Shown piece by piece: positions 37,788 to 58,789 of a stretch of DNA of 64,000 bases. Under the pieces are notes generated by a model. It did not search any database and was not told the DNA's origin. It saw only the letters and a list, made by a program, of their open reading frames with translations. How positions within the stretch are numbered: position 1 is the stretch's first letter; each line of letters opens with the position of its first letter. The position numbers were made by a program, and so were the translations under genes. Source of the stretch: [Phormidium] sp. LEGE 05292 (GTDB lineage Bacteria > Cyanobacteriota > Cyanobacteriia > Cyanobacteriales > Aerosakkonemataceae); NCBI RefSeq assembly GCF_015207735.1, contig NZ_JADEWG010000001.1, positions 1-64,000 on the forward strand. The letters are read 5' to 3'.

Positions 37788-37975
37788 TTTTGAACTGACA
37801 ATTCCATCAATTAGCAAATTTCAATATTTTTGGAAGTTTTTAACAGTAGCTTCCGTTTTTGCCCAAAGATGTCATCGCTCGTCACAGGATAATCAAATAT
37901 ATTCCAACGTTCTTGCCAGAAAGTAACATAATAATCTCTGCTACCATGACTTAAAGTTGGGAAAAAACTGGCTTA
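37788..37975 (-). pseudogene. Decayed second peptidoglycan-binding domain of the adjacent mini-gene
   Basis: Reading on past the stop of the 69-residue gene, the minus strand still encodes recognisable remains of the second domain found intact in the 148-residue paralogue. GSRDYYVTFWQERWNIFDYP matches STGYYVTLLQDRLNVIGYP. After a frameshift, TEATVKNFQKY then stop then NLLIDGIV matches TEAAVKMFQKAQGLVVDGIV. Several stops and at least two frame changes show that it is dead. The rest of 37595-37787 holds HIP1 sites and no gene. Confidence 0.8.
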
Positions 37976-38185
37976 CTAAGAAAGCAAAGCATTCCAAGTT
38001 TTTGGCCCAACAACTCCGTCTACTGCTAAACCGTGACTCTTTTGAAATTGCTTAACTGCTGCTACAGTATGTGGCCCAAAATCTCCGTCAACTTTTAAAG
38101 AGTAACCTTTTTTATTGAGGAGTTGTTGTAAGTATTTTACATCGTTGCCTTTGCTGCCTGAACTGATAACTGGTCTAGATGGCAT
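37976..38185 (-). CDS. Single peptidoglycan-binding-domain mini-protein (truncated paralogue)
   Basis: 69 residues, essentially one PG_binding_1 domain (GSKGNDVKYLQQLLNKKGYS, KVDGDFGPHTVAAVKQFQ, DGVVGPKTWNALL). No signal peptide or catalytic domain. It is the first half of a former two-domain gene, whose second half is decayed downstream. The retained half is uninterrupted and keeps the shared leader and start, so it may still be expressed. It is a member of a four-gene tandem array on the minus strand. Confidence 0.82.
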   Translation of the reverse strand: MPSRPVISSGSKGNDVKYLQQLLNKKGYSLKVDGDFGPHTVAAVKQFQKSHGLAVDGVVGPKTWNALLS

Positions 38186-38283
38186 TTTATTTACTCCAGA
38201 AATTGAATGTTTGTTTCTACATTTCTAAATTAACTCTTATGGAGTAAAATATGCAGTACCCCCAAGGGTAGTTTACCTAAAAA
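38186..38283 (-). promoter_or_regulatory. Conserved leader, array copy A
   Basis: This ~95-bp leader is shared by all four mini-genes. It has an operator-like TACCC-N4-GGGTA at 38257-38270, directly joined to a conserved GTACTGCATATTT. An AGAAA.GTAGAAACAAACATTCAATTTC block follows, then GGAG about 8 bases before the ATG. Conservation of non-coding DNA at this level implies a common promoter or regulator. Confidence 0.6.
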
Positions 38284-38301
38284 CTATTAATAGCTTTAAA
38301 T

Positions 38302-38343
38302 AAAAAAATAGCGATATCTCCCTTTAAGAGCGATCGCTATTGT
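38302..38343 (-). terminator. HIP1-containing hairpin after the 148-residue mini-gene
   Basis: An imperfect inverted repeat (AAAAATAGCGATATCT with AGAGCGATCGCTATT) lies 65-105 bp past the stop, with A/T-rich flanks. It is related to the perfect hairpin at 39467-39511. Confidence 0.5.
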
Positions 38344-38407
38344 TGGTTATGAACTAATCGAAAATAACTTAGAATTACTGATAACAATCGGGATTAATTA
38401 GTGAAAA

Positions 38408-38854
38408 TTAATAATCGATCGCGTAGAGTTCACTCCAAGTATATTTTCCGACAATTCCATCAACTACCAAACCTTGAGCTTTTTGGAACATTTTTACAGC
38501 TGCTTCTGTTTTTTCTCCAAAGATGCCATCGATCTTCAAAGGATAACCGATTACATTTAGGCGATCTTGCAACAAAGTCACATAATAACCTGTGCTATCA
38601 CGACGTAATATTGGGTATTTACTTGGCTCGTCAGGAAGCAAAGCATTCCAAGTTTTCTCGCCAACAATTCCGTCTACTGTTAAATCGCGACTCTGTTGAA
38701 ATTTCTTAACCGCAGCTTCAGTAAGTTTGCCAAAATCTCCGTCAACCTTTAAGGAATAACCATAAGAATTGAGGATTTCTTGGAGGAATTTAACATCATC
38801 ACCTTTGCTACCTTTACTCAAAGTTGGTAAAGAACATTCACATTGAACTTGCAT
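38408..38854 (-). CDS. Two-domain peptidoglycan-binding mini-protein
   Basis: 148 residues, two PG_binding_1 domains in tandem (about 10-70 and 78-145; cores KGDDVKFLQEILNSYGYS / FGKLTEAAVKKFQ and STGYYVTLLQDRLNVIGYP / FGEKTEAAVKMFQ). No catalytic domain and no signal peptide. The N-terminus holds two cysteines (QCECSL). Domains of this type usually target enzymes to cell-wall glycan; as stand-alone proteins their role is unknown. It is probably the intact form from which the neighbouring 69-residue gene decayed. Confidence 0.85.
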   Translation of the reverse strand: MQVQCECSLPTLSKGSKGDDVKFLQEILNSYGYSLKVDGDFGKLTEAAVKKFQQSRDLTVDGIVGEKTWNALLPDEPSKYPILRRDSTGYYVTLLQDRLNVIGYPLKIDGIFGEKTEAAVKMFQKAQGLVVDGIVGKYTWSELYAIDY

Positions 38855-38950
38855 TTTATTGACTCCAAAGATTAAATGTTTGTGTCTACATCTCTAAAGT
38901 AACTTTCCCCTATTGAAATATGCAGTACCCACTAGTGTAATTTACCTATT
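38855..38950 (-). promoter_or_regulatory. Conserved leader, array copy B
   Basis: The same leader as the other copies, with the palindrome at 38926-38939 (TACCC-N4-GTGTA, one mismatch in the second half), the GTACTGCATATTT box and the ACAAACATTTAAT block. Confidence 0.55.
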
Positions 38951-38982
38951 TAGCTAATTCAAACCATTGATTAATTTAGATA

Positions 38983-39024
38983 AAAAACAGCGATCTCTCT
39001 TCAAGAAGAGCGATCGCCATTTTC
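38983..39024 (-). terminator. HIP1-containing hairpin after the 85-residue mini-gene
   Basis: AAAACAGCGATCTCTCTT pairs, with three mismatches, with AAGAGCGATCGCCATTTT about 60 bp past the stop. Confidence 0.5.
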
Positions 39025-39080
39025 AAGTCTTATCTAATTAATAAATCGATTAATCGAAAGTAACCCAAAGGGATGAATTA

Positions 39081-39338
39081 TCAGTAAGCGAGTTTTAAAA
39101 TAGCATCGCCTAAAGCACGCCAAGTTTTTGGCCCAACGATACCATCAACTTTCAAACCGTGAGCTTTTTGGAAGTTTTTGACAGCAGATTCAGTCTCAGC
39201 ATTGAACTGGGCATCGAAGTGATCCTTCTGATATTTAATAGCAATCAGAACTTGCTGTAAAAAGCGCACTGCTTCACCAGAAGTACCCTTTTGCAAAACG
39301 GGCATATTGATTGTTGTAGCTTGCGTAGTGGATTCCAT
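39081..39338 (-). CDS. Single peptidoglycan-binding-domain mini-protein
   Basis: 85 residues: a Thr-rich N-terminus (MESTTQATTINMPVL) and one PG_binding_1 domain (TSGEAVRFLQQVLIAIKYQ, FNAETESAVKNFQKAHGLKV, DGIVGPKTWRALG). It is closest to the 87-residue gene next in the array, with a near-identical C-terminus (RALG(D/E)AILKL). No secretion signal is seen. It has its own conserved leader and a terminator-like hairpin on each side, so each array unit may be transcribed alone. Confidence 0.85.
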   Translation of the reverse strand: MESTTQATTINMPVLQKGTSGEAVRFLQQVLIAIKYQKDHFDAQFNAETESAVKNFQKAHGLKVDGIVGPKTWRALGDAILKLAY

Positions 39339-39437
39339 TTTTTTGACTCCAGAAATTGAATGTTTGTTTCTACATTTCCAAAGTAATTATTCTGGAGCAA
39401 AATATGCAGTACCCGCTAGGGTAATTTATCTATTTAG
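39339..39437 (-). promoter_or_regulatory. Conserved leader, array copy C
   Basis: The shared leader with a perfect TACCC-N4-GGGTA at 39410-39423, the adjoining GTACTGCATATTT box and a GGAG ribosome site close to the ATG. Confidence 0.6.
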
Positions 39438-39466
39438 CTAATTTAAATCCTTAATTACTTGAGATA

Positions 39467-39511
39467 AAAAAATAGCGATCGCTAGCAGTTGGAGAGCGAT
39501 CGCTATTTTTT
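39467..39511 (-). terminator. Perfect HIP1 hairpin terminator
   Basis: AAAAAATAGCGATCGCT (39467-39483) and AGCGATCGCTATTTTTT (39495-39511) form a perfect 17-bp stem with an 11-base loop, ending in a T-run in either direction. It lies 53-97 bp past the 87-residue mini-gene, a convincing bidirectional intrinsic terminator built around GCGATCGC. Confidence 0.7.
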
Positions 39512-39563
39512 CTTGTTATCTAGTTAAGGAATCGATTAATCGAAAGTAACTCAAAAGAATAAA

Positions 39564-39827
39564 TTAGCAGCAGGTGAGTTTTAAAATAGCTTCGCCTAAA
39601 GCACGCCAAGTTTTTGGTCCAACTATACCATCATCTGCCAAATCACCCTCTGCTTGGAAGTTTTTGACAACTTTTTGAGTTTCAGTTCCGAAGACTGCAT
39701 CAAAGGAAATCTGATATCCAAGAGCAATCAGGACTTGCTGTAAAAAGCGCACTGCTTCACCAGAAGTACCAATTTTTAAAACAGGCAAGGAGATATTGAT
39801 TGTTGTTGTTTCGTTAGTGGTTTGCAT
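39564..39827 (-). CDS. Single peptidoglycan-binding-domain mini-protein
   Basis: 87 residues: a Thr-rich N-terminus (MQTTNETTTINISLPVL), then one PG_binding_1 domain (TSGEAVRFLQQVLIALGYQI, FGTETQKVVKNFQ, DGIVGPKTWRALG), ending in CC. It is the most upstream member of the minus-strand array. The usual GL(A/K)VDG stretch is DLADDG here. Function is unknown; a cell-wall interaction is the family expectation. Confidence 0.84.
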   Translation of the reverse strand: MQTTNETTTINISLPVLKIGTSGEAVRFLQQVLIALGYQISFDAVFGTETQKVVKNFQAEGDLADDGIVGPKTWRALGEAILKLTCC

Positions 39828-39920
39828 TTTGTTTACTCTAGAAATTGAATGTTTGTTTCTACATTTCTAAAGTAATTATTCTGGGGGTAAATATGCAGTA
39901 CCCCGTTAGGGTAAACTTGA
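39828..39920 (-). promoter_or_regulatory. Conserved leader, array copy D
   Basis: The shared leader; here the palindrome is TACCC-N5-GGGTA at 39899-39913. The homology ends at about 39915, which defines the outer limit of the duplicated unit. Confidence 0.58.
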
Positions 39921-40005
39921 AAATTCTCAGTTACTAACAGAATATTGACTCAAATTCCTACACGAAACCAAAGCGATATTCGTTACAACAAACGTTTTCT
40001 AGTTC

Positions 40006-40061
40006 GTTGTGACGACTTCAGTCGTTCTCTTGAGAAAATAAACGACTGAAGTCGTTACAAC
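40006..40061 (-). repeat. ACGACTGAAGTCGT-type inverted repeat after cax
   Basis: Two 21-base arms (40006-40026 and 40041-40061) pair at 20 of 21 positions around a 14-base loop. They end 20 bp past the antiporter stop, so the hairpin can terminate that transcript. Single arms of the same family recur at 46424-46447 and 51600-51622. Confidence 0.7.
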
Positions 40062-41208: not shown

Positions 41209-41647
41209 TTAGTTTTCCGTGTTTTGGTTCATTACGTATTATGCACAAGGTTAGAAAAGTATAAAACTAAAGCAGCTAATAAAATCCTTCTTTGGATGTA
41301 AAGCGTAGCGGTAATAGTAAAAAATTATTTATTTTATTTACTAAATTTGGGAATTCTTAATTTAAATTTTTAATTGTAGTTAATTTTCATTAATTATTGT
41401 GGAACAATTCTAAATTTTAGGTTTTAATCGAGAAAGATAAAAGAAAATACCTACCCTCGGTGTCATGCTTTTATTTCCAAAGTAAAAGATCGTATGTAGT
41501 AAGGTTCTCGATCGCTACGGATTACGTCAACTATCTATTAGTCTTTGATCCCCAGCTATAGCCAAAAAATACCGACCTGAAAGGCGAAAAGCCAATCCCA
41601 AGGCGGTTTGACAAGCTGTTTAACCTTTCAAATTGGACTTAGTACTT
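41209..41647. other. Gene-free region upstream of the GH57 gene
   Basis: About 440 bp between divergent genes, AT-rich to 41440. No ORF, tRNA or strong repeat is seen. It should hold the promoters of cax and the GH57 gene. Confidence 0.5.
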
Positions 41648-44290
41648 ATGACTGCTTTCGCAGATTTACCAACTTCCCTCACTGGGAAAACTGATAACAT
41701 CACGGCATTAACAACTGATAATCAATCGGGGATCGATCCCCAACAAATTACCGGAGTTTTTGTCACGGTTCACGGACATTTCTATCAGCCACCAAGGGAA
41801 AATCCTTATTTGGATGCGATCGAAAGACAACCAAGTGCATCACCTTTTCATGATTGGAATGAACGAATTCACCACGAGTGCTATCGTCCCAATGCCTTCG
41901 CAAGGGTATTAAATGACAAGGGAGAACTAGTGGGGATCATTAATAACTATGAATACATGAGTTTTAATATTGGGCCTACACTCATGTCATGGTTAGAAAA
42001 ATATGATTTAGAAGTTTACCAAAGAATTTTAGAAGCAGACCGGAAAAGTTGCGATCGCCTAAACGGACATGGAAATGCGATCGCCCAAGTTTACAACCAC
42101 ATCATCATGCCTTTGGCGAACACTAGGGACAAATACACCCAAATTCGCTGGGGCAAAGAAGACTTCCGTTCCCGCTTTAACCGCGATCCCGAAGGAATGT
42201 GGTTAGCGGAAACCGCCGTAGATTATGCTACCTTAGAAGCGGTAATTGCTGAGGGCATTCGCTTCTTAATTTTGGCACCTTCCCAAGCCCAACGTTGCCG
42301 ACCTTTACCCACAGCCGAACAACCGGAATCAGAGTGGTTAGAAGTGGGAGGGGCACAAATCGATCCCACCCGACCTTACCGTTGTTTTCTGCCCGGAACT
42401 GACAAATTTATCGATATTTTCTTCTACGACGGCCCAATCTCCAGAGATATGGGCTTTAATGATGTGCTCAATAGTTCCCATAACTTAGCGGGACGAATCG
42501 GCATGGCAATCCAAGGGGATCGTCGTCCCGCCCAATTAATTTCTGCTGCTACCGATGGCGAAACTTTTGGACATCACAAGCATGGCACAGAAAAATGTCT
42601 AGCTTATGCTTTTACCAGCGAGTTTGCCAGTCGGGGTTGGCAAGTTACCAACTTCGCCCATTATTTAAGCTTGAATCCCCCCGCTTGGGAAGTGGAACTA
42701 AAACCTGTGACTGCTTGGAGTTGTAGTCACGGGGTCGATCGCTGGCAAGAAGACTGCGGTTGTGGTGGTGGTGGCGGATGGCACCAAAAATGGCGGCGAC
42801 CTTTGCGGGATGCGTTAGATTGGTTACGCGATCGCTTGATTGAAGTTTACGAGGAAGTGGGACGGAAGTATTTCCTCGATCCTTGGCAAGCTAGGGATGA
42901 GTATATTAAGGTGATTCGCGATCGATCTGCTGCTAATGTCGAACATTTCTTAATTAGACATCAATCGCGAAAACTTCAATCCGCAGAAAGAATTGATGCT
43001 TTGCGTTTGTTAGAAATGCAGCGTCATGCTTTGCTAATGTACACCAGTTGCGGTTGGTTTTTTGAAGAAATCTCTCGCCCCGAAGGTGTGCAAATTCTCC
43101 GCTATGCTTCCCGCGCCTTAGAATTAGCTGGAGAAGTGGCAGGTGTACATTTAGAAAAAGAGTTTGTCGATCGTCTCGCCCTCGCCTCCAGCAACGTCGA
43201 TACTTTCCGCAACGGCGATGAAGTTTACCGTCAGTTAGTAGTTTCTGCACAGGTTAACTTCCAACAAGTCGCTGCACATTATGCCATTTCTTCTCTGTTT
43301 ACCACTTATCAACCCGAACATCGCGTCTATTGTTACACCGCTAATCAAGTAGATTACCAATTGCAACGCATGGGGCCGTTAACTTTAGCAGTAGGTCGAT
43401 TGCAATTGGTGTCAGAAATTACTTGGGAAAGTGCGGATTTAACCTTTGCAGTGTTGCATTTAGGCGGTTGGGATTTCCACTGTTGTATTAAGCGATTTAC
43501 TACCCGTCGCACTTATACGCAAATGAAAGAGCAATTATTTGATGTTTTGCAACAGGCAAGTGCGGCACAAGTAATTTTAGCAATGGTTAAATTGTTTGGC
43601 GATCAAAACTTTAATTTAGAGAATTTGTTTGCTGAAGAACGCCATCGGATTATGCGTTTATTAACGCAAGAAACTTTGGTGCGGTTGGATCAACTTTATA
43701 CCCAAGTTTATCGGGATAATTTTGGTGTATTGCGGGCATTTCATCGGGATGAGTTGCAAGTACCGCAAGAGTTACAAGTAGCAGCGGAAATTGCTTTGAG
43801 TAATCGGGCGATTGTGACAATGCGATCGCTAGAACAAGTAATCAGCGATTCAACTTTTGACGATCCATTAGTGGGATTAGCAGAAATAGGCGAGTTGGAA
43901 GCAGTTGCGATCGAAGCTAACAGTATGGGTTGTCAGCTGAAAATCCGCGAAGGTAAGCAAATGATGGAACGGTTGATTTTGCGATCGCTTTGGCATCTGT
44001 TACATGATGCTAATCCCACCACAATGGAAGCAGAGATTCATCGTTTAGAACGCATGGTTGATGTTAGCTATCGGCTGAATCTTGGCTTGTCTTTAGACCG
44101 GGCACAGGAAATCTTTGCTAATGCTTTGTCGAAGCAAATTATGCCTAACTTAGTTCCGGTAAGCGCGGTTTTGGATGGGGGAAAAGGCGACCGATCTCCT
44201 GCTTGGGAATTAACCCAAATGCGTCCATTAATTCGCTTAGCTGAAAAACTCAAAGTTGACATCGACTTTTGGGTAAGTCAGTTACTTTAA
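41648..44290 (+). CDS. GH57-type glycoside hydrolase with DUF3536
   Basis: An in-frame TTG at 41633 exists, but the ATG at 41648 (MTAFADLPTS) is preferred, giving 880 residues. The N-terminal catalytic barrel resembles GH57 (VTVHGHFYQPPRENPYLD, GMWLAETAVDYATLEAVIAE, TDGETFGHHKHGTEK with the probable acid Asp/Glu). The C-terminal half matches DUF3536. Relatives act on alpha-glucans and are found next to glycogen genes; the substrate here is not known. Its last 28 codons (WELTQMRPLIRLAEKLKVDI...) have an orphan near-copy about 2.1 kb downstream. Confidence 0.88.
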   Translation: MTAFADLPTSLTGKTDNITALTTDNQSGIDPQQITGVFVTVHGHFYQPPRENPYLDAIERQPSASPFHDWNERIHHECYRPNAFARVLNDKGELVGIINNYEYMSFNIGPTLMSWLEKYDLEVYQRILEADRKSCDRLNGHGNAIAQVYNHIIMPLANTRDKYTQIRWGKEDFRSRFNRDPEGMWLAETAVDYATLEAVIAEGIRFLILAPSQAQRCRPLPTAEQPESEWLEVGGAQIDPTRPYRCFLPGTDKFIDIFFYDGPISRDMGFNDVLNSSHNLAGRIGMAIQGDRRPAQLISAATDGETFGHHKHGTEKCLAYAFTSEFASRGWQVTNFAHYLSLNPPAWEVELKPVTAWSCSHGVDRWQEDCGCGGGGGWHQKWRRPLRDALDWLRDRLIEVYEEVGRKYFLDPWQARDEYIKVIRDRSAANVEHFLIRHQSRKLQSAERIDALRLLEMQRHALLMYTSCGWFFEEISRPEGVQILRYASRALELAGEVAGVHLEKEFVDRLALASSNVDTFRNGDEVYRQLVVSAQVNFQQVAAHYAISSLFTTYQPEHRVYCYTANQVDYQLQRMGPLTLAVGRLQLVSEITWESADLTFAVLHLGGWDFHCCIKRFTTRRTYTQMKEQLFDVLQQASAAQVILAMVKLFGDQNFNLENLFAEERHRIMRLLTQETLVRLDQLYTQVYRDNFGVLRAFHRDELQVPQELQVAAEIALSNRAIVTMRSLEQVISDSTFDDPLVGLAEIGELEAVAIEANSMGCQLKIREGKQMMERLILRSLWHLLHDANPTTMEAEIHRLERMVDVSYRLNLGLSLDRAQEIFANALSKQIMPNLVPVSAVLDGGKGDRSPAWELTQMRPLIRLAEKLKVDIDFWVSQLL

Positions 44291-44303
44291 TTTGGGGAAT
44301 CTA

Positions 44304-44334
44304 GATCTCCGACTTTTAGAAGAAGTCGGAGATC
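44304..44334. repeat. Hairpin after the GH57 gene
   Basis: GATCTCCGACTT and AAGTCGGAGATC form a perfect 12-bp stem with a 7-base loop 14 bp past the stop. No T-run follows, so it is a transcript-end stabiliser or dispersed palindrome rather than a classic terminator. Confidence 0.6.
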
Positions 44335-44411
44335 GGGAACTTCAAGGAAGCTAGATGATAGTTTTGGATTATCTCTAAAACTACAGTAGAGCCAACTGGA
44401 GAAAGTATCGA

Positions 44412-45215
44412 ATGCTAAAGTTAAACACCCACAAAATCAGCCCCGAACAAGTAGAAGCTTTTGCGCGAGACGGCGTTATTTGCGTCAAAAATGTTTTGGA
44501 TGACATCTGGGTGGAACGGATGCGAACAGCGGTTGACAAGAATGTATTAATTGCTGGCCCTTTGGAAAAGAAAGGTGTGCCAAGACCAGAAGGCCGTGTA
44601 GAGCATACTAGTAGTTTATGGCTGGTTGATACTGATTTCCGTGCTTTAGCTTTTGAATCTCCTCTGGCAGCCCTTGCTGCTCAAGTTTTGCAATCAGAAA
44701 AACTCAACTTTTTGACTGACGGCTTCTTTGTGAAACAGCCGAAGGCTACTAGCCGTGTTGGTTGGCACAATGACCTACCTTACTGGCCGATACAAGGTTG
44801 GCAGTGTTGTAAAATTTGGTTGGCTTTAGATAAAGCCAACCAAGAAAATGGTCGATTAGAGTACATCAAATCCTCACATTTATGGAACAAAGAGCTCTGT
44901 GAAGGATCGAACCCCTCATGGTTTATGGAGCCAGAACCTCACGAAATTCTCTCCTGGGATATGGAGCCTGGAGATTGCTTGGTTCATCATTTTTTGACTA
45001 TTCATCATTCAGTAACCAATGTATCTTCTAATTCAAGACGTGCAGTGGTAACTAATTGGACAGGCGATGATGTTACTTACTATAATCGCCCCAATGCTTG
45101 GCCTTTTATTAATCTCGATCGAATCGATCTACCAGAATTTAATTCATTTAAAACTAAAAAAGATGGTGAACCGATCGACTGTGATATTTTTCCAAGAGTT
45201 GAACTGCGTCGCTAG
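44412..45215 (+). CDS. Phytanoyl-CoA dioxygenase-like Fe(II)/2-oxoglutarate oxygenase, MysH candidate
   Basis: 267 residues of the PhyH fold. The iron ligands are His119 and Asp121 (GWHNDLPYW) and His198 or His199 (TIHHSV). The 2-oxoglutarate Arg is in NSRRAVVTNW. A PhyH-type oxygenase, MysH, is known to convert mycosporine-like amino acids to palythines and is encoded with mys genes in some cyanobacteria. This gene lies about 1.5 kb before mysA, which makes MysH a reasonable hypothesis, though other PhyH substrates are possible. It sits in a segment bracketed by GH57 3'-end copies and converges with the glycosyltransferase gene. Confidence 0.8.
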   Translation: MLKLNTHKISPEQVEAFARDGVICVKNVLDDIWVERMRTAVDKNVLIAGPLEKKGVPRPEGRVEHTSSLWLVDTDFRALAFESPLAALAAQVLQSEKLNFLTDGFFVKQPKATSRVGWHNDLPYWPIQGWQCCKIWLALDKANQENGRLEYIKSSHLWNKELCEGSNPSWFMEPEPHEILSWDMEPGDCLVHHFLTIHHSVTNVSSNSRRAVVTNWTGDDVTYYNRPNAWPFINLDRIDLPEFNSFKTKKDGEPIDCDIFPRVELRR

Positions 45216-45300
45216 TTAAGCATTTTACAAGTCGTTACAGAAATTAAAACTCGGTTATTGCGAGCATTCGTAGCAAACATTTAGGTATTGCATATACTAC

Positions 45301-46212
45301 TTAGGATGTAATCCTATCAAGTTCATCAAGAACATTGTTATCTATATTAAGGTCAAATTTCCGAGCAAAATGAGCAGATGATGCCAGCAATTTTGGCAAG
45401 TCTTCTATGAGTAATGTCTTGGGATGACAACCTCCACTAGACCAATCAATATAGCGCAAACGATCGTTTTTTAGTTTCAAGTGAGGTGCGTTAGCAAGTA
45501 TAGTCTGAAAATATGATTCGTCTGTGTATTTCAGCGTTTTATAGTACTCGGTTAACACATTTTTATGACTGTGAAAATCGATAATGTACTTAGCAGCTTT
45601 ACTATTGGCACAAAACCATTGACTTCCACTGAAACAAGCAAGTTTTTTGGAAAAAGGAAGGAAAGGTTTTGTTAATAGCGGATGTTCTAAGCATATTTCT
45701 AAATTTAGATGCGTCAAGTATTTTTTGGAAAAATTGAAAGCCAACGACTTTGTACAGTATCGTTGATATGAATTTTTTAGCCATAACATATTAGGTTCTA
45801 AGTCAGACTTATAAATTTCATAAGTAATTTGCTCATATTGAATATAAGCATCATAAGAATTTGTAGTCAAATCGTCTAATATTTGCTTTGCAGTTTTAAT
45901 TGGATAATCTGCGCCACTCAGTAATACAAACCAATCCGGTGCATCTGCTGCCTCGTACATTAGTTTAAGTGCTTGTACTGTAGCTTCTACAAGCGAAAAA
46001 GCTCCCCATTCAGTCTTTACGTGAGGTCGGACAAATAAGACATTTTTTGACAGAGTATCTACAGATAGATCGCATTTAGCAAAATCATGATGACAAACAA
46101 TTAACGGATAATTAAACATCCTATTTAACGTATTTATCAGCCTGTATATTTGTAGAGGTTTATTATGAGTTAGTAAAACAAACCCGATCGAATTTTGAGG
46201 AAAATTAGACAT
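45301..46212 (-). CDS. GT14-like (core-2/I-branching) glycosyltransferase
   Basis: 303 residues, no membrane anchor. The Branch-family landmarks are visible: FVLLTHNKP at the start, FVLLSGADYPIKT, SGSQWFCANSKAAKYI, TDESYFQTIL and LRYIDWSSGGCHPKTL. The family transfers GlcNAc or xylose in eukaryotes; bacterial members mostly decorate polysaccharides or secondary products. Its position between the MysH candidate and mysA suggests it may glycosylate an MAA, as glycosylated MAAs exist in Nostoc; this is speculative. It is encoded on the opposite strand to both neighbours, so it has its own promoter. Confidence 0.85.
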   Translation of the reverse strand: MSNFPQNSIGFVLLTHNKPLQIYRLINTLNRMFNYPLIVCHHDFAKCDLSVDTLSKNVLFVRPHVKTEWGAFSLVEATVQALKLMYEAADAPDWFVLLSGADYPIKTAKQILDDLTTNSYDAYIQYEQITYEIYKSDLEPNMLWLKNSYQRYCTKSLAFNFSKKYLTHLNLEICLEHPLLTKPFLPFSKKLACFSGSQWFCANSKAAKYIIDFHSHKNVLTEYYKTLKYTDESYFQTILANAPHLKLKNDRLRYIDWSSGGCHPKTLLIEDLPKLLASSAHFARKFDLNIDNNVLDELDRITS

Positions 46213-46307
46213 TTATTTTAGTGAACATTCCGCATCACACTGATTTTTTTTAACAAAAAGCTGATTTTATGTCAATAAGCCATATTAATTAAATTAGTTT
46301 TAGATGC

Positions 46308-46411
46308 GGGGAACAGCGATCGCCCGGTTGGGAATTAACCCGAATGCGTCCTTTAATTAGCTTAGCTGAAAAACTCAAAGTTGATATCAATTTTTGGGTA
46401 ACTCAGTTAGT
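46308..46411 (+). pseudogene. Orphan copy of the GH57 gene's 3' end
   Basis: 46328-46409 matches 44203-44284 at 75 of 82 bases, and the frame reads RSPGWELTRMRPLISLAEKL then KVDINFWVTQLV, the C-terminus of the GH57/DUF3536 protein. There is no start codon or upstream gene body. The native stop is lost (TTACTTTAA became TTAGTAACA). Either a remnant of an old tandem duplication or the far border of an inserted segment. Confidence 0.88.
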
Positions 46412-46423
46412 AACAATAGGGGG

Positions 46424-46447
46424 TAAACGACTGAAGTCGTCACAACG
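46424..46447. repeat. ACGACTGAAGTCGT palindrome
   Basis: AACGACTGAAGTCGTCACAAC-like single unit, same family as 40041-40061 and 51600-51622. It lies in the gene-free gap between the GH57-tail remnant and mysA. Confidence 0.65.
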
Positions 46448-46580
46448 AACTTTCATCAGAAACTTAATTGTTATTTATTAACAATAAATTAATTGTTATC
46501 TTGCTTACTAGAAAGTGTAACAGTTTTGAATAGATACAATATGTCTACCTTAACTTAGACAAAAAAATAGGCTTTGTCAA

Positions 46581-46596
46581 TAAGTAACATTACTTA
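46581..46596. promoter_or_regulatory. Palindrome upstream of mysA
   Basis: TAAGTAA-CA-TTACTTA is a perfect inverted repeat about 175 bp before mysA, in the AT-rich DNA that must hold the mys promoter. It could be an operator; no regulator is assigned. The remaining gap to 46768 is AT-rich with an imperfect CAGCAGCAGCTTGTTGCTG hairpin at 46706-46724. Confidence 0.35.
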
Positions 46597-46768
46597 ACAT
46601 ATTATTAATACATACTCATTTAAAGATATATAAAATCCCTCTTAAGGCTATTTAAAAAAGTTATTTTAATGTTATAAAGTAAGAGAAAGCGTCGTTTGAG
46701 AGTGAACAGCAGCAGCTTGTTGCTGTCTTAATTGGCATCGCAAAATCTTTCTTATAAAAATAGCAATC

Positions 46769-48004
46769 ATGAGTATCGTCGAAACCAAACTCGAAGTAAC
46801 TGATAGTGCATTTCATGTGGCAAGTTACGAAAAGATTGAGTACAGTCTCGTTTATGTAAATGGAGTTTTCGATTCACAAAACTCTGAAATTGCAGACAGT
46901 TACCAAAAATTTGGACGTTGCCTAGCAGTTGTAGATGCCAATGTAAATCGATTGGATGGACAAAAAATTCAATCCTATTTCCAACACTACAACATCGATT
47001 TAACTGTATTTTCGCTCTCCATCCCAGAACTAGAAAAAAATCTGATAACGATGGAGAAAATTATCGATGCTTTCGCAGAATTTGGCTTACTGCGTAAAGA
47101 ACCAGTTTTAGTAATTGGTGGTGGTTTAATTACTGATGTTGCAGGTTTAGCTTGTGCGGTTTATCGTCGCAGCAGTAATTATATTCGCATTCCAACTACT
47201 TTGATTGGGTTAATTGATGCGAGTGTAGCGATAAAAGTAGCAGTGAATCATAGGAAACTAAAAAACCGCTTGGGTGCTTACCATGCCTCCCAAAAAGTAA
47301 TCCTGGATTTCTCATTTTTGGAGACTTTGCCAACGGCTCAAGTTCGCAACGGCATGGCAGAATTAGTGAAAATTGCTGTTGTTTCTCAAGCAGAAGTTTT
47401 TGAATTGTTGGAGAAGTATGGCGAAAAATTGTTGCATAGTCATTTCGGCTATCTTGGTGACAATTCCGAACTGCAAGAAATCGGTCAAAAAATTAATCAT
47501 CTGGCAATTAAACAAATGCTGGAATTGGAAGTTTCCAACTTGCATGAGTTAGATTTAGACCGAGTGATTGCTTACGGACATACTTGGAGTCCGACTTTAG
47601 AATTAACGCCTCGCATCCCTTTGTATCACGGTCATGCTGTTAATATTGATATGGCGTTATCGGCAACAATTGCAGCGAATCGGGGTTATATTACGACTGG
47701 GGAACGCGATCGCATTCTCCAACTCATGAGTAGTTTGGGTTTAGCACTGGATCATCCCCTGCTGGAAATCGATCTGTTATGGCGTGCTACTGAGTCTATT
47801 AGTTTAACTAGGGATGGTCAACTACGCGCCGCTATGCCAAAACCGATCGGTACTTGTTTCTTTGTCAACGACTTGACTCGCGAAGAACTAGAAGCAGCAG
47901 TAGCAGATCACAAGCAGATTTGCGCTACTTATCCTCGCGCAGGTGCAGGTGTTGACGCTTATGTGCAAACTGAAGAACCGGAATTGATCGGGAGTCGGGG
48001 ATGA
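46769..48004 (+). CDS. mysA: Demethyl-4-deoxygadusol synthase
   Basis: 411 residues, sugar-phosphate cyclase superfamily (dehydroquinate synthase-like). The NAD-binding motif [12 protein letters not shown], zinc ligands in [17 protein letters not shown] and HGHAVN, and the C-terminal extension with [10 protein letters not shown] are all as in the MysA/DDGS group rather than AroB. It converts sedoheptulose 7-phosphate to demethyl-4-deoxygadusol, the first step of MAA synthesis. Its stop overlaps the mysB start (ATGA), so the two are translationally coupled. Confidence 0.94.
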
Positions 48005-48834
48005 GTGATAGTTTATTGAAAGGCGATCGAGCAAGACCTGTCACACCTTTAGGCATTTTGGTAGAAAAGCTGGAAAAAATCGTCAAAATGGCTGAAACAG
48101 CGACGATTCCCACTGAAATTAACAACGCTCTGCAACAAGCATATCAACTAGCCGCTGGCATCGATCCGTATTTAGAAGAAGTGACGACCCAAGAATCTCC
48201 TGCTTTGGCGCAGTTGGCGAAACAGACACGCGAAGAACCTTGGAGTAAACACTTTAGCGATCGCGCCACTGTGCGACAGTTAGAACAGGAAATGCTTTCG
48301 GGACATATTGAAGGACAAACTTTAAAGATGTTTGTCTATATGACTGGCGCAAAAAACATTTTAGAAATTGGAATGTTTACCGGATATTCGGCGCTAGCAA
48401 TGGCGGAAGCATTACCAGAAAATGGGCGAGTTATTGCTTGTGAAGTTGATGAATATGTAGCTAATTTCGCCAAAAGTTGCTTTCAAGAATCACCTCACGG
48501 CAGTAAAATTTCTGTGGAAGTCGCCCCAGCTTTACAAACTTTGGAAAAATTAGCCGCAGTAGGAGAATCCTTTGATTTGGTGTTTATTGATGCCGATAAA
48601 AAGGAATATGTGGATTATTTCAAACTGCTGCTAGATAAGGGTTTGTTGGCAGAAAATGGGTTTATTTGTGTTGATAATACGTTGCTTCAAGGGGAACCTT
48701 ATTTACCTGCGGAAAAACGTAGTCCTAATGGAGAAGCGATCGCACAATTTAACCACATTGTTGCCCAAGATCCCAGAGTTGAACAAGTTTTGCTACCTTT
48801 GCGAGACGGTTTAACTATTATTAGGCGAGTTTAG
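48001..48834 (+). CDS. mysB: MAA O-methyltransferase
   Basis: 277 residues, class I SAM-dependent O-methyltransferase of the caffeoyl-CoA type. The SAM motif [19 protein letters not shown], metal-site [13 protein letters not shown] and ICVDNTLL motifs are present. It methylates demethyl-4-deoxygadusol to 4-deoxygadusol. The start overlaps mysA by 4 bp. An N-terminal extension of about 70 residues precedes the methyltransferase fold, as in other MysB proteins. Confidence 0.94.
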
Positions 48835-48862
48835 GGACTGGGGACTGGGTATTGGGGAAAGA

Positions 48863-48937
48863 TCGATCGGGATTTAATGATTTACATGATGCTCAGGATT
48901 AATCAAGAAATCTGGTAAATCCGTAAATCCCGATCGA
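48863..48937. repeat. Inverted repeat between mysB and mysC
   Basis: TCGATCGGGATTTA (48863-48876) and TAAATCCCGATCGA (48924-48937) are perfect 14-bp arms around a 47-base loop. In the transcript this hairpin lies just before mysC and may tune its expression. GGGACTGG repeats precede it at 48834-48850. Confidence 0.6.
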
Positions 48938-48961
48938 GTTTCCCTGCTGTAATATAAATAG

Positions 48962-50320
48962 ATGAGTAATGATATGAAAGAGCGAATTTTTGCGGTGTTG
49001 CAAAATTTAGGGACTTTGGCACTTTTGGCGATCGCATTTCCCTTTAATTTGACTATTGTATTAGCAGCATTATTAGGGAATTTGATTAGTCAACCTTGGC
49101 AAAAGTCAAGAGTGAAAAACCCGAATCCCAAAAATATTATGCTGACTGGTGGGAAGATGACAAAGGCGCTGCAACTGGCGCGATCGTTTCACGCGGCTGG
49201 ACATCGGGTGGTATTAATTGAAACTCATAAATATTGGTTAGTTGGTCATCGTTTTTCTAATGCGGTCGATCGCTTTTATACTATTCCCTCACCGTCAAAA
49301 GATCCAGAAGGTTATACTCAAGCTTTATTAGCGATCGCTAAACAAGAAAATATCGATGTTTATGTTCCAGTTTGTAGTCCGATCCAAAGTTATTATGACT
49401 CTTTAGCTAAACCAATTTTATCAGGTTGTTGTGAAGTTTTTCACTGCGATGCTGATGTGACAAAAATGCTGGATGATAAGTTTGCTTTTGCCGAAAAAGC
49501 GCGATCGTTCGGTTTATCTGTTCCCAAAACTTTTTTGATTACTAACCCAGAAGAAGTGCTAAATTTCGACTTTTCCCAAGAAAAACGAAAGTATATTTTA
49601 AAAAGTATTGCTTACGATTCGGTGCATCGCTTAGACATGACTAAATTCCCAATGGAAACTAGGGAAAAAATGGCGAATCATGTTCGCAGTCTACCAATTA
49701 GTAAAGACAACCCTTGGATTATGCAAGAGTTCATTCCAGGGAAAGAGTATTGCACTCACAGCACAGTAAGAAATGGCGAATTAAGGGTACATTGCTGCTG
49801 CGAATCTTCAGCTTTTCAAGTAAATTATGAAAATGTGGATAATCGGAAAATTTTTGCATGGGTGAGTCATTTTTTCCGGGAATGCAAATTAACAGGACAA
49901 ATTTCCTTTGATTTTATTGAAGCGGAAGATGGAACGGTTTATGCGATCGAATGTAATCCCCGGACTCACTCAGCAATCACCATGTTTTACAATCATCCTA
50001 AATTGGCAGATGCTTATTTAAATGATGAGTCAGATTCCGATTATCCTTTGCAACCTTTAGCTAATAGTAAACCAACTTATTGGTTGTATCATGAAATTTG
50101 GCGATTGACGGGGGTAAGGTCGATCGCTCAACTAAAAACCAGATTAAACATTATCTTACGTGGTAAAGATGCCATCTTTCAATTTAACGACCCCCTACCA
50201 TTTTTCATGGTACCTCATTGGCAAATCACCTTATTATTGCTGAAAAACTTGCAAAAACTTAAAGGTTGGATCAGGATAGATTTTAACATTGGTAAACTCG
50301 TTGAAATCGGTGGAGACTAA
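48962..50320 (+). CDS. mysC: ATP-grasp mycosporine-glycine synthase
   Basis: 452 residues. An N-terminal hydrophobic segment (about 14-36) precedes an ATP-grasp fold: MLTGGKMTKALQLARSFHAA, KSIAYDSVHRLD, WIMQEFIPGKEYCTHS, and metal ligands in SFDFIEAEDG and AIECNPRTHSA. It ligates glycine to 4-deoxygadusol to give mycosporine-glycine. It is 127 bp after mysB in the same direction. The length and the hydrophobic N-terminus agree with other MysC proteins. Confidence 0.93.
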   Translation: MSNDMKERIFAVLQNLGTLALLAIAFPFNLTIVLAALLGNLISQPWQKSRVKNPNPKNIMLTGGKMTKALQLARSFHAAGHRVVLIETHKYWLVGHRFSNAVDRFYTIPSPSKDPEGYTQALLAIAKQENIDVYVPVCSPIQSYYDSLAKPILSGCCEVFHCDADVTKMLDDKFAFAEKARSFGLSVPKTFLITNPEEVLNFDFSQEKRKYILKSIAYDSVHRLDMTKFPMETREKMANHVRSLPISKDNPWIMQEFIPGKEYCTHSTVRNGELRVHCCCESSAFQVNYENVDNRKIFAWVSHFFRECKLTGQISFDFIEAEDGTVYAIECNPRTHSAITMFYNHPKLADAYLNDESDSDYPLQPLANSKPTYWLYHEIWRLTGVRSIAQLKTRLNIILRGKDAIFQFNDPLPFFMVPHWQITLLLLKNLQKLKGWIRIDFNIGKLVEIGGD

Positions 50321-50363
50321 ACTCAGATATTGCTCCAGTAAGGAGGTAGAACCTCCCAAAACC

Positions 50364-50392
50364 TCGTTCCCAGGTTCAACCTGGGAACGAGA
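50364..50392. repeat. CTCGTTCCCAGG palindrome
   Basis: CTCGTTCCCAGG-TTCAA-CCTGGGAACGAG is a perfect 12-bp hairpin between the convergent mysC and mysD, placed to act as a bidirectional transcript end. It belongs to a widespread cyanobacterial palindrome family. Confidence 0.75.
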
Positions 50393-50435
50393 AATAGAGG
50401 CTCCGCTCAGGAGTTCAAGATCTCAGTAAAGGTAC

Positions 50436-50480
50436 GTTGTTGCGCTTTATCACTAAAGTTTATCGCTGAAGCGCAACAAC
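50436..50480. repeat. GTTGTTGCGCTT inverted repeat
   Basis: GTTGTTGCGCTT and AAGCGCAACAAC arms enclose a 21-base loop, ending 6 bp from the mysD stop. A single arm recurs at 63770-63781. Confidence 0.7.
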
Positions 50481-50485
50481 TTACT

Positions 50486-51499
50486 TTATGTTTCATCGAT
50501 CGCTGTTTTTAATAACTCCTTTACAGGAATTCCTGCTGCTTTTGCCATACAGGGAATCACACTTTTAGTAGCAAAAGAACAATACAAACCAGCTTCTAAA
50601 AACCAAGGTTCTCCATTTGGATCGATGCGAAAATCAAATAAACTATAGTGACGACAACCTAAAGCTTGATGACACTTTTTAGCTACTTGTTGAACTTTTT
50701 CGGTGAGGGGATCGTTAGGGTCTACAATCCAAGATTTGATGTTATCTTTAGCAGCAAAAAGCAAGTTGCCATCATCTGTTAGTTGGAGTTTATCGGCATG
50801 GTTGCGAATGGGTTTTTTCTCAGAGTCTACCAGATACTCTTCCAAGGGTAAACCTACTAGTTCCCCATCTTTAACAATGATGCCACATCTGACTTCTCGA
50901 CCAAGTTCGATGAATTCTTCAACTATGACTTCCGAATCATATTCAAATGCTTTTTTCAAGGCAGCATCATATTCACTAACATCTTTAACTAATACTACCC
51001 CTAAAGAATTGTCAGAAGTTGTAGGTTTAACGACTGCTGGAGGTAGAATTGTGGGAACATCTCCTTGGCGAAGCAGTTCTCCACGAGGTACTTTTACTCC
51101 TGCTGCGGCGACAATTGCTTTGGTTCTTGCTTTGTGGGCTGCGATCGCCATAACATCAGGAGTATTCCCAATGTAAGGAATTTTCAGCAAGTCGAATAAA
51201 CCTCGGTAATAAGTCATTCCCGGAAGACAAAACATTTGTGGTAAAACCAGGTGAATGTTTTGCGCTGTGATAAATTCGATCGCCTCAAACAAAGTCATCG
51301 GTTTGGCGACAGCGATATCTTCTAAACTGAGAGAAGCAGGAAATCGCCAATTGCGATCGGGTGTAATATATGCAATTAGAAAGTCATAGCATGGATCTGC
51401 TGTTGCTGTGAGACAATCTTGAGCATAAAGGCGGGACAAATCACAGTAAAAATCATTTTCAGCAGACCCAACTAAATGAAGAATACGCAGCGATCGCAT
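50486..51499 (-). CDS. mysD: D-Ala-D-Ala ligase-like MAA synthase
   Basis: 337 residues, ATP-grasp of the D-Ala-D-Ala ligase group. The N-terminal LRILHLVGSAENDFYCDL, PYIGNTPDVMAIAAHKARTK, SDNSLGVVLVK, VIVEEFIELGREVRCG and the C-terminal DFRIDPNGEPWFLEAG are the MysD/DdlB signature. It condenses a second amino acid (Ser, Thr or others) with mycosporine-glycine to give shinorine, porphyra-334 and similar imines. Unusually it faces mysABC, so it needs its own promoter and could be expressed separately, changing the ratio of mono- to di-substituted MAAs. Confidence 0.92.
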   Translation of the reverse strand: MRSLRILHLVGSAENDFYCDLSRLYAQDCLTATADPCYDFLIAYITPDRNWRFPASLSLEDIAVAKPMTLFEAIEFITAQNIHLVLPQMFCLPGMTYYRGLFDLLKIPYIGNTPDVMAIAAHKARTKAIVAAAGVKVPRGELLRQGDVPTILPPAVVKPTTSDNSLGVVLVKDVSEYDAALKKAFEYDSEVIVEEFIELGREVRCGIIVKDGELVGLPLEEYLVDSEKKPIRNHADKLQLTDDGNLLFAAKDNIKSWIVDPNDPLTEKVQQVAKKCHQALGCRHYSLFDFRIDPNGEPWFLEAGLYCSFATKSVIPCMAKAAGIPVKELLKTAIDET

Positions 51500-51545
51500 G
51501 ACTCATTTTTTATATGATATTACAATTATATTTTAATAGTTCTAT

Positions 51546-51598
51546 CAGTCAACAGTTAACTTTTTAGACCATAATTGATAGCTGATAACTGTTGACTG
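51546..51598. repeat. CAGTCAACAGTTA inverted repeat
   Basis: Perfect 13-bp arms at 51546-51558 and 51586-51598 in the mysD upstream region; an ACGACTGAAGTCG unit follows directly at 51600-51622. Both are dispersed-repeat families. Confidence 0.7.
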
Positions 51599-51626
51599 TA
51601 AACGACTGAAGTCGGCACAACCTACC

Positions 51627-52067
51627 TTAAAAAGAGTAAACTCTTCCAGTTTCATCAATATAAACTGACCTGTCTTCGTCTGCGGGATTAGTTGCTAAAC
51701 GAATGCGAACAAAGAGTTGATTTTGTTGAGGGTCAGTACTGTAGTCAAATGCCAATATTTGTGGAGAATAAATATTAACATTAACAATATCTTGAACTTG
51801 ATTAATGCTTCCTGCTGTAAAACTACTTGTGCCGTTTGGAGGCAAATTTCCCGCTGCACTACGACCTAAACTATAATTAACAGGAAAACCAGATTGATTC
51901 AAAATAGTGATTTTAATCGGTTGTTTTGGGTCAATCTGTGCTTGAGGTTGCCAGAAACCTGTCGAAAAAGTGTTTGCACCTGTTTTAGGTTGAGAAAAAA
52001 CAGCATTAGGAATTGTTACACTGATGCTGGTAAGTAGTACCAAAGCAGTTAAAAATCTTATTTTCAT
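51627..52067 (-). CDS. Exported hypothetical protein
   Basis: 146 residues with a clear Sec signal peptide (MKIRFLTALVLLTSISVTI, cleavage near AVFSQ). The mature domain is about 120 residues, beta-rich, with KITILNQSGFPVNYSLG and SVYIDETGRVY, and no cysteine pair. It looks like a small periplasmic or extracellular beta-sandwich. I do not recognise a named family. It is probably transcribed alone, on the same strand as miaB and mysD. Confidence 0.7.
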   Translation of the reverse strand: MKIRFLTALVLLTSISVTIPNAVFSQPKTGANTFSTGFWQPQAQIDPKQPIKITILNQSGFPVNYSLGRSAAGNLPPNGTSSFTAGSINQVQDIVNVNIYSPQILAFDYSTDPQQNQLFVRIRLATNPADEDRSVYIDETGRVYSF

Positions 52068-54490: not shown

Positions 54491-54640
54491 TCAAGAAATT
54501 TCTATGGTAATTTTTTTTCCTAAAGCATGGGCATATCTTGCTAGAGTAGAAATGCCAACATTTTCTCCATGATTCTCTATTCTAGAGCTTAGGGAGAAAT
54601 ATCTATCTAATGACTGATAAATAAGATTTCCACGCGATCT
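54491..54640 (-). pseudogene. Remnant of an XRE-type HTH antitoxin/regulator
   Basis: The minus strand reads FSLSSRIENHGENVGIST then LARYAHALGKKITIEIS and stop, the end of an XRE helix-turn-helix (compare the usual SxSRIENGEN..S..TLARYA.ALG). No start codon and no first helices are found upstream in frame, so only the C-terminal part survives. Confidence 0.6.
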
Positions 54641-54746
54641 AGTTTTTGAAGAAAACTAGAGAACAGGAGTTTAGTTTGTAAGCAAGATAGTTACATCCGA
54701 CTACATAGTTGGATACTGAACATTTAGCAGAAACGAGGATATTAAG

Positions 54747-55229
54747 ATGACTCTAAACCAGCAAGGAATAGTCATGATGCCTCAAGAAGGCGATGTGGTG
54801 ACAGTTGTCGGTGATATTGTCACTTTTAAGGCATTGGGGCAGAATACTCAGGGACAATATGCCCTGATTGAGATTGTATGTAATCCAGAGGTGGGCACGC
54901 CCCCCCATATTCATAGCCGTGAAGATGAAGCGTTTTACATTCTTGAGGGTGAAGTTGAGTTTCGCTTAGATGACCAAACTATTTTGGCGACACCCGGTAC
55001 ATTCTTGCATTCTCCCAAGGGACAAAAACACAGCTTCAAAAATACTGGAACGACGCAAGCGCGAATGTTATGTTGGGTAACACCTGCTGGTTTGGAAATG
55101 TTCTTTGCTGAAGTTGGCAGACCTGTAACCGATCCATTGAATCTACCTGTGCCCGATCAGGCTGCGATCGACAAACTGCTAGCGACTGCACCAAAGTATG
55201 GGCTGACAATCTTACCCCCCGAAGCATAA
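54747..55229 (+). CDS. Single-domain cupin protein
   Basis: 160 residues with one cupin barrel. Motif 1 is PPHIHSREDEAFYILEGEVE (metal-binding His, His, Glu) and motif 2 is GTFLHSPKGQKHSFKN (His). C-terminal GLEMFFAEVGRPV. It is probably a metal-dependent dioxygenase, isomerase or binding protein; the substrate cannot be inferred. It stands alone, divergent from the retropepsin-like gene. Confidence 0.85.
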   Translation: MTLNQQGIVMMPQEGDVVTVVGDIVTFKALGQNTQGQYALIEIVCNPEVGTPPHIHSREDEAFYILEGEVEFRLDDQTILATPGTFLHSPKGQKHSFKNTGTTQARMLCWVTPAGLEMFFAEVGRPVTDPLNLPVPDQAAIDKLLATAPKYGLTILPPEA

Positions 55230-55280
55230 AGTGGCTCTCCCTTACTTTTGGTGGAAAACCCTGATTTTAGGGACTCTTGA

Positions 55281-55320
55281 CTGGGGATAACAGGCAAGAT
55301 ACCTGTCCTACGGGACTGGG
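55281..55320. repeat. ACAGGCAAGAT...CCTGT dispersed repeat, copy 2
   Basis: Same family as 21995-22033, in the other orientation (ACAGGCAAGATACCTGT followed by CCTACGGGA). It lies in the 314-bp gene-free gap 55230-55543 after the cupin gene. Confidence 0.7.
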
Positions 55321-55543
55321 ATTCCTGATAAATCAAGGATTTCACAAAACAATAAAGTTTATTTATCACCAGAAGTACAGGAGAGCCAAATTGTGATTCC
55401 TCTGTTTCCCCTCTCTCTTCTCTTTGCGTCCTATAGCGCTATCGCGCATGGCTTCGCTAGCGCGTTCTTTGCGGTTTAAAAAAAGTCGATCGCAACGTCT
55501 ACTTAAATATTACCCAGTTTAATTAACTCTATTTTCAACAAAA

Positions 55544-58500: not shown

Positions 58501-58789
58501 AGGCAACGAAGGTAAAAATTCCTAACCGTAGCAGATCGTCAAAAACAGGTGTCCATTGGTAGATTGGGGGAATCAAGAAGTAGTCGATCGCCAGCACTGA
58601 CAAAACAACAGATACAATACCGGGATAAATGCCCCCATACCAGGTACTCACAATCACAGCAACGAAGAAAAACGCCCCCAGCGTCCCAGTCATTAACGGC
58701 TTTAACCAGATTGTCAGCAGCAGAGCGATTCCTGTGGACGCGATAGCCACTAGGTAGGGCAGTAACTTGTGATACCCTCTAAATTTCAT
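55544..58789 (-). CDS. Membrane sensor kinase with two-cysteine cyanobacteriochrome-like GAF
   Basis: 1081 residues. A DUF4118/KdpD-like four-helix membrane region (about 10-110) is followed by PAS (about 135-242) and a GAF (about 268-430). In the GAF, Cys361-His362 (GISPCHVEFL) is the canonical bilin site, and Cys333 in D331-P-C-I matches the DXCF second cysteine, 28 residues upstream. Three PAS domains (about 455-840), HisKA (VSHELRTPLTSI) and HATPase_c (GTGLGLSICRSI) follow. No receiver. Residues about 244-256 (AVETLQATSLQ) are encoded by a dispersed palindrome inserted in frame. It is probably a light sensor, if the GAF binds a bilin. Confidence 0.9.
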   Translation of the reverse strand: MKFRGYHKLLPYLVAIASTGIALLLTIWLKPLMTGTLGAFFFVAVIVSTWYGGIYPGIVSVVLSVLAIDYFLIPPIYQWTPVFDDLLRLGIFTFVALIINLLSANLKASKHKVERLSHKFQEESAQRLQTALNAAQMGMWDWDMVTGKIIWSPEHEQLFGLAPGSFDGRYETFDSSLYPDDRQGLNQAIDQSLKNHTSYNHEFRIVWADGSIHWVEGRGKAFYNLQGQPVRMSGTIMAIDARKQAVETLQATSLQLRHQFEQQRLVSESTQRIRNSLNLQDILQTTVDEVREYLKTDRVIIFRFSPGWGGTTVVESVADEWMPILPLQIYDPCIGEEYVEPFKQGLVTAKSDIYNSGISPCHVEFLANLQVRANLVVPVIEGDRLWGLLAAHHCAAPRQWQDSEINLLQQLAAQVSVALGQSTLWEQVQTELAQRKQSEALLRLFAQCAPAGIAMLDRDMRYIMASQRWVDEYNLGAVESLIGRSHYEIFPDIPERWRQIHQRCLAGAIEKSEEDLFVRANGSQQWLFWEIHPWHTATGEIGGIIVFSVDISQRKQAELALQQLNAELEQRVFKRTVQLNQINDRLLEALLEQQHTQFLLSEKAQLLDLAHDTIMTCDLNWVITFWNQGAQQMYGWTPAEALGKETHTLLKTQFTQPLTEIQAQLFDQGYWEGELVHQHRNHQSITVASRWVLQKDAMGRPIKILEINNDITFRKQAEAALRQSEETFRSLSEFSPIGIFLSDIAGKTIYTNPLYQQIIGASAEEALGDGWKEFIHPDDRQWVFQYWSEVVAAGKEGIFNEVRYQDRQGKICYTQVRTAPIKSSDGTVILFVGTVEDITERRKIDQMKQEFISIVSHELRTPLTSIRGALGLVAAGIFDKKPEKMKNMIDIAARQSERLVRLVNDILDLRRLESGQTKFNFQQCAVAELIQQSVDVMRTQAEQNQITLSIIPCALEVWADADAIVQTITNLLSNAIKFSPPNSTITISAEVIPNDLLTEKELPFVALFSVQDQGRGIPEDKLESIFEQFQQVNVSDSREKGGTGLGLSICRSIIEQHGGKIWVQSVLNEGSTFYFTLHFNG
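58023..58058. repeat. TGTAGAGACGTTGC palindrome, copy 2, inside a coding sequence
   Basis: A perfect 36-base inverted repeat (17-bp arms, TT centre) of the family at 52203-52232. It lies wholly inside the kinase gene, in frame, encoding part of the linker between the first PAS and the GAF domain. Confidence 0.85.

Follow-up and report, generated by a model that had tools for sequence, protein, structure and literature searches.

Why does the 3' end of one gene occur a second time, detached from any gene body, within a biosynthetic cluster of the cyanobacterium [Phormidium] sp. LEGE 05292? The question arises from the first 64,000 nucleotides of contig NZ_JADEWG010000001.1 (assembly GCF_015207735.1), hereafter the window, in which an intact gene of the GH57/DUF3536 type is followed by a mys gene cluster for mycosporine-like amino acids (MAAs). 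The explanation given somewhat better than even credence here is that the full MAA cluster, composed of the modules mysH-mysJ and mysABC-mysD, was built by horizontal transfer behind GH57, and that the detached gene end (the tail) is a scar at the seam of the two modules. Its direct basis is an empty site in a sister species (genome G006), a single host locus, different relatives of the two modules and, between them, a tail that is genus-specific in the compared sequences. The locus looks like the product of ordinary gene transfer and not like a new mobile element.

The first-pass annotation of this DNA had reported that positions 44203-44284 recur in direct orientation at 46328-46409, identical at 75 of 82 positions and without a gene body at the second copy, which is confirmed. 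A repeat finder extends the similarity to 106 nt at 85% (44192-44297 and 46317-46422), and in a BLAST alignment, which contains a 4-bp gap, it covers 118 columns at 85% (E 2.2e-30), the left, intact copy lying at 44168-44284 and the remnant at 46297-46409, both on the forward strand. Translated in the GH57 frame, the remnant reads RSPGWELTRMRPLISLAEKLKVDINFWVTQLV, 32 residues that are 81% identical to the GH57 C-terminus, and no stop occurs within the translated stretch (to 46449). Across the 7.5-Mb genome the GH57 gene end was found at these two places only (best 40 of 45 candidates scored); the remaining seven of nine genome matches of the query consist of the hairpin repeat behind the gene and nothing more. 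A self-comparison of the window (E 1e-6, at least 40 bp) detects no other repeat touching the region from 40 kb onward, and all other pairs fall within 0-23.2 kb or 37.8-39.9 kb, where they look like paralogous genes and local repeats. A distant GH57 paralogue, of which the remnant would be the end, is not supported, as the genome holds one GH57 match (E 1e-40) and the tail is genus-specific in the compared sequences.

How much DNA was added behind GH57 can be read from G006, the nearest relative compared, which belongs to the same genus and has a GH57 protein 94% identical to that of the window. The left border is formed by the intact GH57 gene (41633-44290, +, 885 aa; PF12055 E 5.5e-128, PF03065 E 4.9e-16) and by the hairpin directly behind it (44304-44334), which has a perfect 12-bp stem, aligns to the hairpin behind GH57 in G006 and is the last native sequence on this side; related palindromes occur elsewhere in the genome. 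In G006 the order is GH57, hairpin, a flank (AACTCATTTT...), orf146 and miaB, with no mys gene in between, and the flank after the hairpin is the sequence that resumes in the window at 51498, ahead of the native right border gene orf146 (51627-52067, -). The window DNA without a G006 counterpart therefore spans about 7.2 kb (44335-51497), starting just after the hairpin and ending at the start codon of mysD, and comprises mysH, mysJ, the GH57 tail, mysA, mysB, mysC and mysD. Four of nine relatives (G006, G007, G008 and G009) have GH57 beside orf146 without mys genes; in the compared stretch of the other five family members, neither orf146 beside GH57 nor a mys gene was found. Searches with mysA (E 1e-100), mysD (E 1e-80) and GT14 (E 1e-50), made across genomes for these genes and not for mysB or mysC, found none in the nine other family genomes, four of which carry distant PhyH relatives (24-32% identical, best E 1e-10). 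Since the GH57-orf146 adjacency without mys genes is shared by G007, G008 and G009, an insertion in the lineage of the window is more likely than a loss in G006.

This comparison changes the extent of the finding. The first-pass annotation had the two copies bracket exactly a PhyH-type oxygenase gene and a GT14-like gene, taken as an acquired two-gene module beside an MAA cluster; the bracketing, the acquired look of the pair and its marking by a seam all stand, but the unit was drawn too small and the cluster is no resident, because G006 lacks mysABC-mysD as well as mysH-mysJ. The idea of a 2-kb insert beside an MAA cluster that was already resident is rejected on the comparison with G006 and on the family searches, and the bounds of the finding should be 44335-51497 instead of 44203-46409.

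The block carries seven open reading frames (ORFs) of at least 100 aa, namely six mys genes and a seventh at 50703-51176 opposite mysD. The PhyH gene (44412-45215, +; PF05721 E 4e-31) has an intact frame, retains in alignment the HxD motif (residues 119-121), which serves in iron binding, and has close relatives inside mys clusters. The GT14 gene (45301-46212, -; PF02485 E 3.8e-25), also intact, combines a Core-2/I-branching glycosyltransferase domain with a place in the mys cluster and has relatives in mysH loci. By homology and position, the two are classed as MysH-like and MysJ-like MAA tailoring genes. Behind the remnant and a copy of a dispersed palindromic repeat (46424-46451) follow mysA, a sugar phosphate cyclase resembling dehydroquinate synthase (46769-48004, +; PF01761, 82% to G069), mysB, an O-methyltransferase (48001-48834, +; PF01596 E 9.9e-55, 83% to G069, G119 and G056), mysC, an ATP-grasp ligase (48962-50320, +; NF005315 E 1.3e-163, 85% to G119), and mysD, resembling D-Ala-D-Ala ligases (50486-51499, -; PF07478, 85% to G119 and up to 84% to Nostoc-type loci). 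With mysA, mysB, mysC and mysD adjacent and their frames open, the locus qualifies as an MAA cluster of the order H+ J- A+ B+ C+ D-. Judged by homology, its products should be palythine-type MAAs, possibly glycosylated. The base composition (mysABC 0.40, mysH 0.42, flanks 0.385 and 0.425, GT14 0.34, seam 0.30) is not informative on origin.

The two modules have different nearest relatives. For mysH-mysJ these are Nostoc-type genomes, in which the nearest rows of both mysH and GT14 are found. Across the 22 closest mysH loci, from Nostoc and allied genera (L083-L104), the encoded proteins share 77-85% identity with the PhyH protein, and 21 of these loci have other mys genes on the stretch compared. 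Nine of them (L083, L084, L086, L087, L088, L092, L093, L096 and L103; 80-83% identity in seven, 71-72% in two) possess a GT14 gene of full length in convergent orientation to mysH, and partial GT14 matches occur in L090 and L102. With Nostoc sp. JL34 (L083), the pair and its spacer form one colinear DNA block (44399-46214, 81%). The 25 loci L083-L107 yielded no match to GH57 or to its tail. The first-pass annotation would have been contradicted by relatives having a second full GH57 gene here and the cargo pair outside any repeats; the latter is the case in Nostoc-type loci, and no relative shows the former. Beyond the Nostoc-type genomes, GT14 relatives reach 58-66% in G081, G129 and G156, three genomes that do not appear in the 34 mysA matches. 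In Nostoc sp. NMS9 a DDE transposase gene (L086:9047-10195) lies between mysH and the GT14 gene.

For the core module, mysA and mysB are 80-83% identical to those of G069, G119 and G056 (family labels f12 and f22) and 65-75% identical to those of the carriers among L083-L103. In quick trees built without bootstrap and assessed by the Shimodaira-Hasegawa-like approximate likelihood ratio test (SH-aLRT), the window mysA groups with G069, G119 and G056 (SH-aLRT 97) and mysC with G119 (SH-aLRT 99). Approximately unbiased (AU) tests, with constraint sets named after the trees had been seen, reject a grouping of the window mysC with Nostoc-type rows in both sets (p 3e-4 and 7e-5) and of mysA in one of two sets (p 6e-5). 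No mysH or GT14 match lies within the 13.8-19 kb around mysA of G119, G069 and G056, and these genomes are not among the matches of the mysH and GT14 genome searches, for which the genomes covered are not listed in full. On these sequence comparisons mysC appears to be of a non-Nostoc type, mysA likewise though less firmly, and the mysHJ and mysABC modules have different nearest relatives.

Between these modules lies the tail. Among the compared relatives, it has the elements KVDI-FWV and RSP-WELT-MRPLI in common only with the GH57 proteins of the window and of G006, with S for P in G006. As far as sampled, the tail would thus come from this genus. Over 96 aligned bp, at which the two window copies differ 12 times, 10 sites set the remnant apart from the other two sequences, one does so for the window GH57 and three for G006, and all three differ at one. 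At first and second codon positions the remnant differs from the window gene by 9%, against 3% between the two intact genes; although few sites are involved, this is as expected for a fragment out of use. Because a tail resembling, among the compared sequences, only this genus sits at the mysHJ/mysABC seam, the modules were probably joined in this lineage and not imported as one ready-made block, with later insertion of a tail patch into such a block as the alternative that may apply.

The events that would produce this arrangement can be proposed as follows. The mysABC-mysD module would have settled behind GH57 and been joined on its right, at the start codon of mysD, through an imperfect 9-bp microhomology. 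A related strain would then have supplied DNA with GH57, hairpin, mysH and mysJ, of which the left end recombined homologously within GH57 and the right end joined illegitimately into the old GH57 tail. The outcome would be a complete GH57 in front and about 118 bp of old tail left behind the new genes, while the order of the two steps may be reversed. The process would correspond to homology-facilitated illegitimate recombination anchored in GH57, in which, as described in PMC3240628, one end of the incoming DNA is integrated by homology and the other illegitimately. An illegitimate-looking seam at about 46296 and the imperfect microhomology at 51498-51506 would be the corresponding junctions. 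At the latter, where the mysD start region of relatives is compared with the native flank, the window reads ATGAGTCAT and the native flank of G006 ATGAGTTAT. The mysD start region of relatives most often reads ATGAATCAT on the mysD strand (10 of 29 mysD loci, with other variants in the rest); ahead of the start codon, relatives most often have ATGA-ATC (ATGAATCATG, in 10 of 29 loci), the window has AAAATGAGTC-ATG and the empty flank of G006 has AAAATGAGTTAT. Host sequence thus appears to have replaced the upstream stretch usual for mysD at the right join. Within this host flank, 51525-51552 (-) matches a sigma-70-like promoter facing mysD at 11 of 12 positions, and host sequence may have driven mysD since the two were joined; a scan of the region for promoters and terminators found 20 and 6, compared to 20.5 and 6.0 in shuffled sequences.

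Several observations weigh against this reconstruction. Synonymous divergence from G006 varies along GH57 (permutation p 0.032, change point 41951) with no edge near the 3' end, and it does not locate a homologous crossover or a clean replacement tract within the gene. No intermediate with GH57-mysABC alone or GH57-mysH-mysJ alone was found, one other genome of the genus having been compared. Only seven of nine positions of the junction microhomology agree when ATGAATCAT is set against the G006 flank, and the similarity could be accidental. The pattern of 10, 1 and 3 odd sites is as compatible with a tail from the donor strain as with a host copy that has decayed. As regards the ancestry of the modules, the AU test does not reject the window mysA with the other Nostoc-type set (p 0.19), the mysD tree gives no resolution, and in the mysH tree the window stands beside, not inside, a supported Nostoc subclade.

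In a different route, possible though on the unlikely side, the whole cluster or mysHJ was end-joined and the seam was filled with about 118 bp copied from the end of the neighbouring GH57, or a circle with a short GH57 end integrated by a single crossover that gave direct repeats. The remnant, short and 5'-truncated, lies some 2 kb from the likely template, and its 10 unique changes in 96 sites are compatible with decay since some time after the split from G006, from which the window differs at 24% of 4-fold sites; for Escherichia coli, PMC3240628 documents that incoming DNA, once circularised, integrates by a single crossover. The price is an extra templating step or a circle that has left no trace, and the place between modules with different relatives is unexplained except as seam filler. 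Quite improbable is a tandem duplication of a unit made of the GH57 end and its cargo, with the second unit overwritten by mysABC. The two tails are direct and about 2.1 kb apart, as such a duplication would leave them, but, apart from two chance-level hits of 18-20 bp, 46213-46296 and 46452-46768 have no further match in the window, and the seam holds no trace of a second mysH or mysJ. A search of 195 genomes (best three candidates scored per listed genome) returned, besides the window itself, the GH57 end in G000 and in G006 and nothing else.

The least probable route, and one that can hardly be maintained, is that the two tails are attL and attR of a site-specific integration of mysH-mysJ into the 3' end of GH57. 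Direct repeats at a gene's 3' end that bracket two genes had led the first-pass annotation to liken the arrangement to an integrative element and to propose a search for a recombinase with related sites. However, the native hairpin is still directly behind the intact left copy, whereas behind the far copy come a dispersed 26-bp repeat and then mysA, and native flank resumes only at 51498; as native downstream sequence would trail the far copy after attB/attP integration, this reading fails. The copies are also not the near-identical att repeats expected (12 differences in 96 bp), this gene pair also occurs in Nostoc-type genomes, where no GH57 tail was found in its vicinity, and no recombinase was found in the insert ORFs scanned, which exclude 50703-51176 and ORFs below 100 aa, or in the neighbours checked. 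Where the hairpin lies, and that no scanned ORF is a recombinase, are the grounds on which site-specific integration at this gene end is rejected. The dispersed repeat has at least 48 other genome places at E 0.001 (best 40 of 112 candidates scored); its core is AACGACTGAAGTCGTC, and a run at 67-base spacing lies on contig C165. Copies are found near both ends of mysABC-mysD (46424-46451 and 51598-51621), and further ones within 40001-40061.

With assembly by transfer behind GH57 as the preferred explanation, the locus offers a readable example of how a sunscreen cluster can be assembled, with an empty site, two modules of different relatives and a scar of the host genus between them, and the scar argues that the tailoring genes mysH and mysJ met the core genes in this lineage. 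The closest described counterpart is the mysABCJ1D1G1H cluster of Nostoc sp. UHCC 0302, for which PMC11378024 describes MysH as a dioxygenase homologue in palythine synthesis and MysJ1 as homologous to beta-1,6-N-acetylglucosaminyltransferase and presumed to attach a pentose, with no activity seen in E. coli; other MysH proteins convert a glycine-bearing MAA to a palythine, according to PMC10510106. The window cluster shares the core genes and the dioxygenase MysH, and by its description MysJ is matched here by the Core-2/I-branching (GT14) gene. In contrast to UHCC 0302, it has no mysG, its genes follow another order (H+ J- A+ B+ C+ D-), a GH57 tail separates J from A, and mysC and, less firmly, mysA are non-Nostoc. 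Two GT4 genes on contigs other than that of the cluster (G000 C15:18803-19990 and C9:7906-9102) are 55% and 50% identical to the GT4 gene of a Nostoc MAA locus, which is MysG-like by family and place. In PMC11378024, MysJ is confined to Nostoc among the complete genomes screened; the genome that has a MysJ-like gene in its MAA cluster here bears the family label f1, and the Nostoc-type genomes bear f33 (taken as the Nostoc family from the mysA tree).

A mobilizable (MOBV-typed) plasmid of Nostoc sp. HK-01 (AP018319.1, L220) carries mysD, mysH, mysC, mysB and mysA and is one possible vehicle of spread; unlike the window, it has no GT14 match (E 1e-30), nor GH57 or its tail within the 18.8-kb stretch. 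For the displaced gene end, a parallel exists in the type VI secretion system (T6SS) clusters of Vibrio cholerae, where new modules push old effector 3' ends and immunity genes downstream, the same recombination is proposed, and such events are rare compared to ordinary recombination (PMC5361080). In both cases genes are added behind a conserved anchor and an old 3' end moves downstream, whereas here the genes are biosynthetic and not effector-immunity pairs, there is one scar, and the anchor gene is complete. It is tempting, though rather doubtful, to generalise that the GH57 3' end is a repeated landing place at which separate MAA modules are stacked by transfers between related strains, each pushing an old gene end downstream. 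If so, the MAA cluster would grow stepwise in the manner of T6SS effector-immunity arrays, and a core MAA pathway would be upgraded in place to (glyco)palythine synthesis.

Two further stretches of the window differ from G006. At 54492-58871, which has no DNA match in the compared G006 stretch, the window contains a cupin gene and a PAS/GAF histidine kinase gene, and at 37797-39914 local repeats surround a peptidoglycan-binding ORF, with the G006 matches arranged differently.

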